A stretch of 64,000 nt of DNA from Bacteroidales bacterium (GTDB lineage Bacteria > Bacteroidota > Bacteroidia > Bacteroidales > P3). The notes beneath the pieces are model-generated. The model did not search any database and was not told the origin of the DNA. It saw only the letters and a program-made list of their open reading frames with translations. The position numbers and the translations under genes are program-made. Positions 6,298 through 60,907 of this stretch are shown in pieces (the first letter of the stretch is position 1; every line of letters starts with the position of its first letter). The stretch is taken from assembly GCA_017480245.1 (NCBI GenBank), contig JAFVBA010000022.1, forward strand, positions 1 through 64,000, read 5' to 3'.

Positions 6298-6450
6298 CTG
6301 CCAGTAGGGAATAAAAAACTGCTACTTGCGAATTAAGTTTTGCCACTTGCGGAAAGAGTAACAAAAAAAGGGGGTATTTGGGGTGAAAAAACCGGGTATT
6401 TTTACTCAAAAAAGGGGGTATTTTCGCAACTATTTCCGCAAGTGGCAAAA
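6298..6450. repeat. Intergenic composite repeat A (three 22-23 nt A/T-tract units with inverted arms)
   Basis: Three units start at 6363, 6386 and 6408, each an A-run, a G/C core (GGGGGTA, CCGGGTA, GGGGGTA) and a T-run. They are enclosed by a perfect 18-bp inverted repeat, TTTTGCCACTTGCGGAAA at 6338-6355 and its complement at 6433-6450. Further degenerate arm copies lie at 6298-6337 (GCCAGTAGGGAA, GCTACTTGCG). It sits between the convergent ends of the barrel pseudogene and the LRR gene. It shares its design with the repeats at 20577, 36848 and 60715. Confidence 0.8.
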
Positions 6451-19890: not shown

Positions 19891-19922
19891 TTCGTTAGTT
19901 AAGCGGATTTTTACTACTTTTG
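19891..19922 (+). promoter_or_regulatory. Promoter of the exosortase gene, predicting a leaderless mRNA
   Basis: TTCG at 19891-19894 stands 20 bases before TACTTTTG at 19915-19922. The second matches the -7 consensus and the first is one base from TTTG. The likely transcription start coincides with the ATG at 19929. Confidence 0.55.
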
Positions 19923-19928
19923 CAAATT

Positions 19929-20573
19929 ATGAATTTAAAAGATAGAGTAAAAAAAGAACTTGTTGCTGTTTGGGAATTAGAAAGTAACAGACAAATAATA
20001 AAAGACGTTGCATTACTTGCGGTAGCTACCATAGTGTTTCATTTTCTTTATTGGTACAGTGGGATGAATGATTGGATATTCGGTCCTTTTACCCAAAACG
20101 TTTATGATTTCTTCAGACATCTTGCCTTCAATCTGTCTTTGATTCCTTGCAAAGCGTTTATAGACAAGCCTTTTGATATTTCAGATACTACTTATTATTT
20201 TTATGAAATCTTGCCTAACGGATTTAAATACTACAATAGAACAATGGAAATCAATATTGACTGTTCCGGAGTTAAACAATTGTTGCAGTTTCTTTTGATT
20301 ATGCTTTTATGCAGAGGCAATTTTTGGAAAAAAGGTGTTTATTTCGTGGTGGGATGTTTGGTTATATTGTTTTTTAATGTTGTAAGAATTTTTCTTCTTA
20401 CCTCAATTTTTGCCGATAATCCTCATTTGTTTAAACCTATTCACGATTGGATTGCAAGACCTATGATGTATATAATTATTTTTTCGTTATGGTTAATTTG
20501 GATTTCTTATTTTGCAAAACGAAAACAGAAATCTTCCAAGCCCTTAGCTGAAAATCCGACGCCGTTGGCTTAA
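19929..20573 (+). CDS. Exosortase/archaeosortase-family membrane cysteine transpeptidase
   Basis: A 214-residue polytopic protein with the exosortase signature: Cys112 in INIDCSGVKQLLQF, Arg153 in NVVRIFLLT and His172 in PIHDWIARP, each next to or within membrane helices. Exosortases recognise C-terminal sorting tails and process them after export. Bacteroidota carry several types, for example XrtF and XrtN; I cannot fix the type by eye. No partner assembly protein or tail-bearing substrate is adjacent, so it is an orphan here. The frame begins with a TTG at 19920, but the ATG at 19929 fits the promoter. The composite repeat at 20577 starts 3 bases after its stop codon. Confidence 0.82.
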   Translation: MNLKDRVKKELVAVWELESNRQIIKDVALLAVATIVFHFLYWYSGMNDWIFGPFTQNVYDFFRHLAFNLSLIPCKAFIDKPFDISDTTYYFYEILPNGFKYYNRTMEINIDCSGVKQLLQFLLIMLLCRGNFWKKGVYFVVGCLVILFFNVVRIFLLTSIFADNPHLFKPIHDWIARPMMYIIIFSLWLIWISYFAKRKQKSSKPLAENPTPLA

Positions 20574-20576
20574 TAT

Positions 20577-20728
20577 CTGCCGCCCTTTGCAAAATAAATT
20601 TGAAAAAAACTCTTTTTTTAGGTCAAAAAAACTGTTTTTTTACTCCGAAAAAAGAGTTTTTTTTAAATTTTTTCCGCAAAGGGCGGCAAGAACTTCCCCA
20701 AGGGCGTCAAAATAGTAGCAAAGGGCAA
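20577..20728. repeat. Intergenic composite repeat B (three 22-23 nt A/T-tract units with inverted arms)
   Basis: Units at 20603-20619, 20625-20641 and 20648-20664 have the form A6-7, a three-base core (CTC, CTG, GAG), T7-8. The outer cores are complementary, so the array is palindromic about the middle unit. Arms TGCCGCCCTTTGC (20578-20590) and its exact complement (20676-20688) enclose it. Degenerate copies of the right arm (AAGGGCGTCAAA, GCAAAGGGCAAT) continue to 20728. It lies between convergent genes and may terminate both. Confidence 0.85.
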
Positions 20729-36847: not shown

Positions 36848-37039
36848 TTTCCCGACGCCGCAACGGGTTTAGGTGATATTTGGGCGTGGAATGGTGTTTT
36901 CCATAAATTTTTTGCCGACGGTTTTCAATTATTTGCCGTCAATTCGTAATTATTTGCCGACAAAGTTAAAACTAAAACCAGTTTTAAGTATTATTAAAAC
37001 CAGGTTTTAATAAAACTCAAACCTGGTTTTAATAATAAA
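36848..37039. repeat. Intergenic composite repeat D (three 22-23 nt palindromic units)
   Basis: Three units AAAACCAGTTTT (36974-36985), AAAACCAGGTTTT (36996-37008) and AAACCTGGTTTT (37019-37030) lie at exactly 22-23 nt spacing. They are preceded by degenerate copies of TTTGCCGAC (three at 36910-36963, weaker ones from 36848). No right-hand arm is seen. It fills most of the 413-base gap between the divergent transporter and HU-like genes; the rest of the gap up to 37185 shows no gene. Confidence 0.75.
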
Positions 37040-37185: not shown

Positions 37186-37599
37186 ATGCCTATACCTTAT
37201 TATAGAGTAAAACAGCTCGTAAGTATAAACGGGCGGAAGATTGAGCGGTTTTTCTACAGGATTTTGCCTCAAGAGAAAGTTTCTACACGTGAATTGGCAA
37301 AACGTATTAACAAAGGTTCAACTCTGGCGGTCGGAGAGACGGAGTTGGCGCTTCAACAGATAGGTTGGAATCTTATGCAGTTACTGCGCAACGGCCAAAC
37401 AGTTAAACTCAATGACATCGGGACATTTTACCTTACTATGACCACTGCTTCCAAAGAAAATCCGGAAGATTTGACCCACAAAGACATTAAACATATCAAC
37501 ATAAACTTTAAACCCGACAAAGAATTGTTACAAGCCATCAACGAAGAGCCACTGCATTTTGTCGATTTGAATAAAGTTAATTTTGTAAAAGAAGGTTAG
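37186..37599 (+). CDS. HU-related DNA-binding protein, Bacteroidota type
   Basis: A 137-residue protein of the HU-like group found mainly in Bacteroidota. The start MPIPYYRVKQLVSINGRKIE is typical of these proteins, then an HU fold: STRELAKRINKGSTLAVGET, QQIGWNLMQLLRNGQTVKLN, DIGTFYLTMTTASKENPEDL. The C-terminal strand (INFKPDKELLQAI) completes the domain. Such proteins bind DNA with little sequence preference and organise the chromosome; a specific role here is unknown. Its stop overlaps the kdsD stop tail to tail by 4 bases. It is read away from composite repeat D. Confidence 0.85.
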   Translation: MPIPYYRVKQLVSINGRKIERFFYRILPQEKVSTRELAKRINKGSTLAVGETELALQQIGWNLMQLLRNGQTVKLNDIGTFYLTMTTASKENPEDLTHKDIKHININFKPDKELLQAINEEPLHFVDLNKVNFVKEG

Positions 37600-60714: not shown

Positions 60715-60907
60715 CTGCCCGTTGCTTATTTTTTGCTGCCCTTTTGAGTATTCCCACCGCTTTTTGCGGGAAGATTTTGAAAAAAACTCTTTTTTATAGA
60801 TAAAAAAACAGTTTTTTTAGCGTGAAAAAAGAGTTTTTTTCAAATTATTTCCGCAAAGGGCGGCAGAAGGTTAGGGGAGGGCGGAGAGATTAAACGAAAG
60901 GGCGGTA
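60715..60907. repeat. Intergenic composite repeat C (three 22-23 nt A/T-tract units with inverted arms)
   Basis: Units at 60780-60795, 60802-60818 and 60825-60840 have cores CTC, CAG and GAG between A-runs and T-runs. The right arm CCGCAAAGGGCGGCA (60851-60865) is that of repeat B; the left arm (CCACCGCTTTTTGCGGGAAG, about 60755-60774) is degenerate. Arm-like copies (GGGGAGGGCGG, AAAGGGCGGT) continue to 60907. It fills much of the 546-base gap between the divergent kinase and rnfA genes; no gene is visible in the remainder. Confidence 0.85.

Follow-up and report, generated by a model that had tools for sequence, protein, structure and literature searches.

What are the four segments at 6298-6450, 20577-20728, 36848-37039 and 60715-60907 of the window (the whole 64,000-nucleotide stretch of Bacteroidales DNA analysed here), each of which contains three units composed of a run of A, a short core and a run of T, at nearly constant distance from one another? 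A sequence-only reading had placed them at these coordinates, and all four are confirmed from the sequence.

In the second locus, which we refer to as type A, the units lie at 20603-20619 (core CTC), 20625-20641 (CTG) and 20648-20664 (GAG), 22 nt from centre to centre. They are flanked by arms, a feature absent from the earlier description. In the left arm (20540..20602) GCC recurs with a step of 21 nt at 20540, 20561 and 20582, as given by alignment and by the offsets over 31 copies, the innermost motif lying inside GCCGCCCTTTGC at 20579-20590; the right arm (20665..20727) is mirrored and contains GCAAAGGGCGGC, which ends at 20687, AAGGGCG at about 20699-20705, and GCAAAGGGC at 20718-20726. 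The two outer motifs of the left arm (20540-20573) are within the C-terminal codons of an exosortase-like open reading frame (19920-20573; its Pfam PF09721 score is just under the cut-off), so the element apparently overlaps the gene end. The fourth locus is also of type A, with a left arm at 60730..60779 (aligned as L012 among the type-A copies), units with cores CTC, CAG and GAG at 60780..60840 whose centres are spaced by 22 nt, and a right arm at 60841..60907 in which GGGCGG motifs follow a 21-nt step, the copies at 60855 and 60897 being 42 apart.

The other two loci have the same frame with different words. The third (type D) has a left arm at 36906..36961 with three TTTGCCGAC-type motifs at a 21-nt step, a nearly identical arm being present in inverted orientation in a second type-D copy (L104), and units with cores CCAG, CCAGG and CCTGG at 36974..37034, with 22-nt spacing. 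In the first (type C) the left arm at 6321..6352 contains CTACTTGCG and GCCACTTGCGG with 21 nt between them, the units at 6363..6424 have cores GGGGGTA, CCGGGTA and GGGGGTA with centres 22 nt apart, and the right arm motif CCGCAAGTGGC at 6436..6446 is the inverse of 6342-6352, both arms having been located by an inverted-repeat search. The units of this locus are not palindromic, the outer two being direct repeats (GGGGGTA) between inverted arms.

Such triplets do not occur at random frequency. A detector in which no core sequence is specified recovers the first, second and fourth loci from the window, and reports no array when the window is resampled 60 times under a first-order Markov model; the third locus has shorter runs that are under its threshold, and a repeat search shows the three units at 22 nt. 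Ten unit pairs within 60 nt are seen by the detector in the window, six at 22 nt, three at 44 and one at 25. In 618 kb from 80 named loci, most of them of Bacteroidales, neither the strict detector nor that used for the site test described below reports an array, and a relaxed detector reports two weak chains. These detectors require long runs, and miss the short-run arrays that can be made out by eye in L110 and L113.

The arrays are real, and more widespread than had been reported. The draft genome to which the window belongs (G000; 1.75 Mb, 69.6% complete) comes from a lineage for which the Rnf subunit encoded in the window has its nearest named relatives among uncultured rumen and gut Bacteroidales, the best at 98% amino-acid identity, and a BLAST search of it with the second locus returns tens of additional copies. 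We count at least 31 copies of type A and four of type D and, among the matches listed, 21 copies of a type B plus one single-unit remnant. Type B has four units, once five, with cores such as CCTATG/CATAGG, CCATGG, CCCTGG/CCAGGG and similar words. Two relatives, G001 and G013, are also rich in arrays, with paired-unit counts of 504 and 1287, respectively, compared with 283 in G000 and 55 in the next highest of 101 genomes of the family; the reversed-pattern control of this survey is poor because it also matches within arrays (199 in G000, 304 in G001 and 899 in G013), and we use only the contrast between genomes. G013 has extra types on the same frame, one with CATATG in fours and one with GTGG/CCAC/GCAGG and GCCGATTC arms. 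Its reported contamination is 9%, and its contigs C4 and C7 contain identical matches at a constant 7,440-base offset, which suggests a stretch duplicated or assembled twice; these twins are counted once in the site test and are still present in the spacing, junction and promoter-box counts. Four further loci that we retrieved and examined (L042, L043, L096 and L097) are not members.

The spacing of the units is kept very closely. In G000, 60 of the 62 intervals between the centres of type-A cores measure exactly 22.0 nt (the remaining two 21), and 62 of the 64 between type-B cores, measured on six-letter cores, are of 22 nt (the remaining two of 23), a figure that becomes 38 of 66 at 22.0 if the TA interruption described below is parsed as core. 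The value is exactly 22.0 in 62 of 70 intervals in G001, and in 26 of 70 in G013, where cores are of 3-5 nt and 63 of 70 intervals are within 21.5-22.5, a few elements being entered twice in both genomes. Type D is the least strict, with 4 of 11 parsed intervals at 22.0 and others at 20-22.5, some of them via spurious neighbouring units. The fixed spacing proposed from the window is thus kept in other copies; the range of 22-23 nt given for it arises from measuring between run starts, and core to core the distance is 22.

Type A as a whole is a 3+3+3 dyad array of three arm motifs (21 nt), three A-core-T units (22 nt) and three mirrored motifs. A GC[CT] motif is present at -21, -42 and -63 from the first unit in 25, 24 and 23 of the 31 copies, others being shifted by at least one, and, outward from the third unit, its mirror image occupies +21, +42 and +63 in 21, 19 and 19 copies. 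The motifs differ by rank, the innermost being GCCGCCCTTTGCG, the middle CGCC and the outermost TGCC, with the result that the ends read TGCC...GGCA. Types A and B have a common inner border, AATTTTGAAAAA...TTTTTCAAAATT, and types C and D likewise carry 21-nt-spaced arm motifs. Alignment of the 31 type-A copies shows conserved motif islands amid variable spacers; among the 5-nt spacers between units 48 of 62 are distinct, the regularities being a purine at the start (53 of 62) and a pyrimidine at the end (52 of 62). In 18 of the 21 type-B copies of G000 (L074-L095) a TA (GTATTT or AAATAC) interrupts an end unit, in most of them at just one of the two ends, which gives these copies a direction. 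The single-unit element (L093, at about position 40790 of contig C26) has intact inner borders and looks as if its other units were lost through recombination between units.

The cores had been described as unconserved, which proves incorrect, as each genome draws them from a small set of words. All 93 of 93 type-A cores in G000 are CTC, CAG, CTA, CCC or their complements (four words, eight with orientation), 97 of 99 in G001 are CAG, CCC, CTA or CAC, and the words of G013 are CCTA, TCAGA, TCACA, CCACA and TCTA, with their shorter forms and complements. The words combine in many ways, with 26 distinct triples among 33 elements in G001, and their orientation flips within units; near-palindromes may invert easily at replication, which could produce such flips. 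The symmetry about the middle unit seen in the second and fourth loci, with CTC and GAG as outer cores, is the commonest state and not a rule, since CTC-CTG-CTC, GAG-GAG-GAG, CTA-CTG-GGG and other combinations occur. Selection on geometry, as had been suggested, is supported by the 22-nt spacing, the arms at 21, 42 and 63 nt, the variable spacers, and the use of other words elsewhere at about the same spacing.

Where the arrays lie is also informative. Their units are between called genes in 48 of the 56 elements of G000, so that the expectation of an intergenic position holds for most and not for all; an open reading frame overlaps the units in the other eight. Seven of these frames, of 79-100 codons, look spurious; the one at L010 is 534 codons long and could start 18 nt ahead of the units. 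For 120 of the 121 elements from the three genomes there are genes on both sides, with 62 tandem, 50 divergent and eight convergent junctions, as against 33 tandem, nine convergent and eight divergent among all junctions of the window, and divergent junctions are therefore over-represented relative to this baseline, which is not length-matched. The sequence TAnnTTTG, which we take to be the Bacteroidetes promoter motif, is found between array and gene in the sense orientation on 106 of 158 gene-5′ sides and in the antisense orientation on 32 of 158, and most arrays are located beyond the promoter-like box. The distance from the edge of the unit array to the box has a median of 137.5 nt (quartiles 109 and 194), and since type-A arms account for some 70 nt of this distance, the element terminates a short way upstream of the box. 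The flanking genes are of many kinds, presumably including those for tryptophanyl-tRNA synthetase, SufB, elongation factor G, acetate kinase, transketolase and ClpP, judged by translation, together with an HU-like protein and an Rnf subunit identified by Pfam.

Some of the sites are common to relatives. Both flanks are shared between G000 and G013 at L008/L207 and L035/L190, between G000 and G001 at L028/L242, and between G013 and G001 at L199/L227. In a two-way site test restricted to gaps of at least 100 nt, and in which an array of at least three units upstream of the orthologue is scored as positive, the orthologues of G000 genes with type-A arrays have an upstream array in 10 of 17 cases in G013 and 7 of 19 in G001, compared with 1 of 8 and 0 of 9 orthologues of control genes (17/36 versus 1/17; Fisher P = 0.0042). 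Against a wider baseline of 3/29, which is approximate as it was obtained by subtraction between scripts with different gene thresholds, P is 0.0024 overall, 0.011 for G001 alone, and 0.067, not significant, for G013 alone. Genes with type-B arrays have kept an upstream array in only 4 of 12 orthologues. The distances from array to gene start correlate between orthologues (rho = 0.70, n = 17; 0.65 once the most extreme pair is left out). Four of the ten shared G013 sites are A-like, three are of the CATATG type and three are GTGG/CCAC, showing that a place can retain an array while its type changes.

The evidence for shared sites comes from 53 gene-genome pairs, all of them from two draft genomes. 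As queries we used 24 of the 37 gene ends with a type-A array, 10 of the 23 with a type-B array and 15 of the 22 controls, the omitted control entries being duplicates, genes facing the element behind a short open reading frame, and odd gaps. The gap threshold reduced the examined pairs from 19 to 17 (G013) and 20 to 19 (G001) for type A, from 7 to 5 and 9 to 7 for type B, and from 12 to 8 and 10 to 9 for controls. Matches below about 50% identity or with partial coverage were dropped; we kept W18888 (44-45%; in both genomes it adjoins the match to W17793) and, in G013, W19920 (48%) despite low identity, and dropped L035L in G013 (34%), although both flanks are common and the array is present. 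A doubtful G001 array at L009L (GATA, GAACG, GCG) is scored as absent, and scoring it as present would give 18/36.

The geometry, the symmetry, the restricted words, the variable spacers, the promoter-box position and the site sharing are all computed, as is the lack of overall covariation between the arms considered below. Fixed helical spacing, restricted orientation-insensitive words in near-palindromic units, and variable spacers argue for a protein-DNA platform, and the insensitivity of word use to orientation is as expected for a dimer. We therefore propose, with a probability that we put at about one half, that the arrays are bent nucleoprotein platforms at the borders of transcription units, and that their sequence drifts with a putative binding protein. 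The element would then be neither a gene nor an RNA, and instead a platform for a DNA-bound protein complex, in which one protein (or a few paralogues) would bind as a dimer to each near-palindromic A-core-T unit, occupying the same helical face at three or four sites 22 bp apart, with the 21-bp arm motifs holding flanking copies of the protein or a partner. The result would be a dyad-symmetric and strongly bent assembly; the predicted bend of the 80-bp centre is 118 degrees, compared with 38 for resampled sequence and 33 for the window background, as computed with wedge parameters. Situated at unit borders, mostly just beyond a promoter, such an assembly could plausibly insulate the adjacent promoter or promoters or set the local supercoiling, and the core and arm words would shift genome-wide with the binding protein, each site either persisting or being taken over by a different type. 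From the computed features we infer the protein and its oligomeric state, the role in topology or insulation, and the co-evolution. Among the explanations that the sequence-only reading had offered, the binding of an oligomeric protein fits best; our search found no binding protein for the arrays, which counts against the platform.

The gene beside the third locus (37186-37599) encodes an HU-HIG protein (Pfam PF18291), and three further HU-HIG genes adjoin arrays; at the third locus, L104, L090 and L071 the arrays (types D and B in G000, type A in G001) are directly upstream of these genes. The three G000 proteins match the one from G001 at 25-33%, and there are 13 HU-HIG copies in G000, 14 in G013 and four in G001. 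We considered HU-HIG as the array partner and rejected it, as its copy number varies from 2 to 28 over 14 genomes of the genus and does not track array content.

A broader proposal, which we regard as doubtful, is that these elements represent a class of site set by geometry and not by sequence, a helically phased dyad platform (3+3+3, or four to five units) at transcription-unit borders whose small genome-specific vocabulary is rewritten as protein specificity drifts, conserved sites being refilled by another word family in sister species. Such a platform would be a bacterial counterpart of the eukaryotic sites that evolve rapidly while stable in position. Repeat families are usually recognised by their sequence, and here it is the spacing and symmetry that persist, while the spacers are variable and the words change from one species to the next, at some shared sites as well. 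Should the sites prove to be conserved and their type replaceable, the cells would have to contain something that recognises geometry at many of their promoters, and the arrays would offer a testable system both for architectural proteins, supercoiling or insulation in Bacteroidales and for DNA-binding specificity that changes over dozens of sites together.

The strongest alternative, which we consider possible but not probable, is an old MITE-like mobile family in which the arms are transposase-binding ends and the central units are extra binding sites or stuffer repeats, the copies having spread, drifted and survived in harmless intergenic places. The elements are indeed dispersed, multicopy and mostly intergenic with inverted arms, the outer ends of the type-A consensus are TG...CA, and there is a single-unit type-B copy; the D arms are nearly identical in the third locus and L104, and three CATATG copies of G013 have almost identical spacers, from which it follows that copying does occur. 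Random insertion followed by purifying selection would leave the same pattern of arrays upstream of promoters. However, no target duplication is seen, as no k-mer of 2, 3, 4, 5, 6, 8 or 9 nt exceeds shuffled pairings across the 31 type-A copies, and of 59 matches to the type-A arm pattern in G000, 56 are, by comparison of coordinates, within the 31 known copies and three are stray, with no matches to the reversed pattern. Without orphan arms, there is no autonomous partner with type-A arms to be seen in that 70%-complete genome, and the alignment of the 31 type-A copies includes no near-identical recent copies; the absent target duplication and the lack of orphan arms in G000 weaken the case for recent transposition of type A. 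Passive decay of copies would also not be expected to leave sharp motifs beside variable spacers, and the orthologous sites are common above controls, some of them with another type. Searches for a plasmid-borne copy gave no match, and a serpin-like query found no relative. A mobile origin of the arrays at some level is likely, and the two readings can be compatible, with spread through copying and retention through use.

Known mobile elements and repeats resemble the arrays in part. The ends of Mu and Tn7 contain several transposase sites of about 22 bp, about two turns apart and inverted, with TG...CA-like termini; unlike these, the arrays are without cargo, have ends about 190 bp apart, and show no type-A target duplication and no orphan ends in G000. 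ERIC and Correia-type MITEs are imperfect palindromes of 100-200 bp present in tens of intergenic copies, as the arrays are, but are conserved as continuous sequence, whereas the arrays are conserved only as spaced motifs. No named family of this form was met among the open-licence papers listed, in agreement with the earlier note, although this is weak evidence of novelty; the nearest named family is BrickBuilt of Porphyromonas gingivalis. This MITE, which provides a precedent for the mobile reading, is described as having 19 intergenic copies with variable repeat number, some at sites common with a related species (PMC4596501). It is likewise from the order Bacteroidales, with repeats of near-equal length (23 nt) and flanks with inverted ends, and according to the same report it consists of 1 to 22.8 direct contiguous 23-mers between a non-repetitive leader and tail, with one 12-nt terminal inverted repeat (TIR) per end, of IS5 type (GAGACCTTTGCA; PMC4596501). 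By eye, the TIR variant GAGCCCTTTGCA quoted there and the type-A inner arm GCCGCCCTTTGCG have GCCCTTTGC in common. The arrays agree with BrickBuilt in their inverted flanks, intergenic position and copy number of about 20 (31 of type A and 21 of type B with inverted arms), and differ in having three (A) or four, once five (B), near-palindromic units of 15-20 nt at 22-nt spacing with variable spacers in place of spacerless 23-nt direct tandem repeats, in the three-motif type-A arms (21 nt), in the small word set, and in the presence of several types per genome.

It is improbable that the whole element acts as one long hairpin, whether as an RNA processing signal, a terminator, an extruded DNA cruciform or a structured RNA. 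The second locus (20577-20690) has a folding energy of -53.5 kcal/mol (z = -9.2 versus shuffles), which any palindrome can give. If pairing were selected, left and right halves should match better within elements than between them, but the values for whole type-A elements are 0.552 for the same element and 0.547 for crossed pairs (z = 0.5), those for the units are 0.894 and 0.899 (z = -0.6) and for the inner arm 0.654 and 0.671 (z = -1.1), and z for the outer arm is -0.7. Alternative arm and core versions are thus combined without compensation. The mid arm is the only one of eight regions above chance, pairing better within than between type-A elements (0.537 versus 0.489, z = 3.0); its columns mostly lean to same-element pairing, z reaching 2.3 in one column and, on the strength of a single element, 5.5 in another, and there may be some local pairing or shared ancestry there. 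The arrays occur between genes in tandem, in divergent and, less often, in convergent orientation and so have no fixed sense strand, and Rfam covariance models give no match in the window at gathering scores, which speaks against a known Rfam family. The cruciform or folded RNA put forward earlier is therefore disfavoured as the main reading by the lack of overall covariation between the arms, though the mid arm departs from it. REPINs, for which a long co-evolution with RAYT transposases is proposed, resemble the arrays in being extragenic palindromes of high copy number in ordered groups, with several distinct groups per genome (PMC3116915). The REPIN itself is there a hairpin of two inverted REPs (PMC3116915), whereas each array combines at least three A/T palindromes, repeated with a helical period, with arms made of serial motifs, and shows no overall arm covariation.

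Very improbable, finally, is the view that these are intrinsically curved A-tract clusters that pack the nucleoid without a dedicated protein: they share helical phasing and a strong predicted bend (over 80 bp) with the phased A-tract clusters reported for nucleoids (PMC4761138, PMC4132750), and an approximately 10-11-bp periodicity of A-tracts or of nucleotide frequency is reported for bacterial genomes (PMC3940949, PMC4132750), but unlike those clusters they are discrete and dyad-symmetric with sequence-specific cores and arms and a fixed unit number, curvature alone needs neither four core words, arm sequence identity nor exact dyad symmetry, and high paired-unit counts are confined to G000, G001 and G013 among 101 genomes of the family.

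Related arrangements are seen at a few other places. In G014, from another genus of the family, the arrays at L052, L060 and L065 consist of four to six units resembling AAAAAAACGGTTTATTT, spaced by 22 nt, and lack the type-A arms. Weaker arrays are also present in G005 (L103), where a short-run repeat of the form AAAACGCCGTTTC...AAAAGCAAGG...AAAACGCCGTTTTA is nearly identical to that at L113 (JABUUQ010000008.1), and one of these two repeats lies upstream of the Rnf gene that follows the fourth locus in the window.
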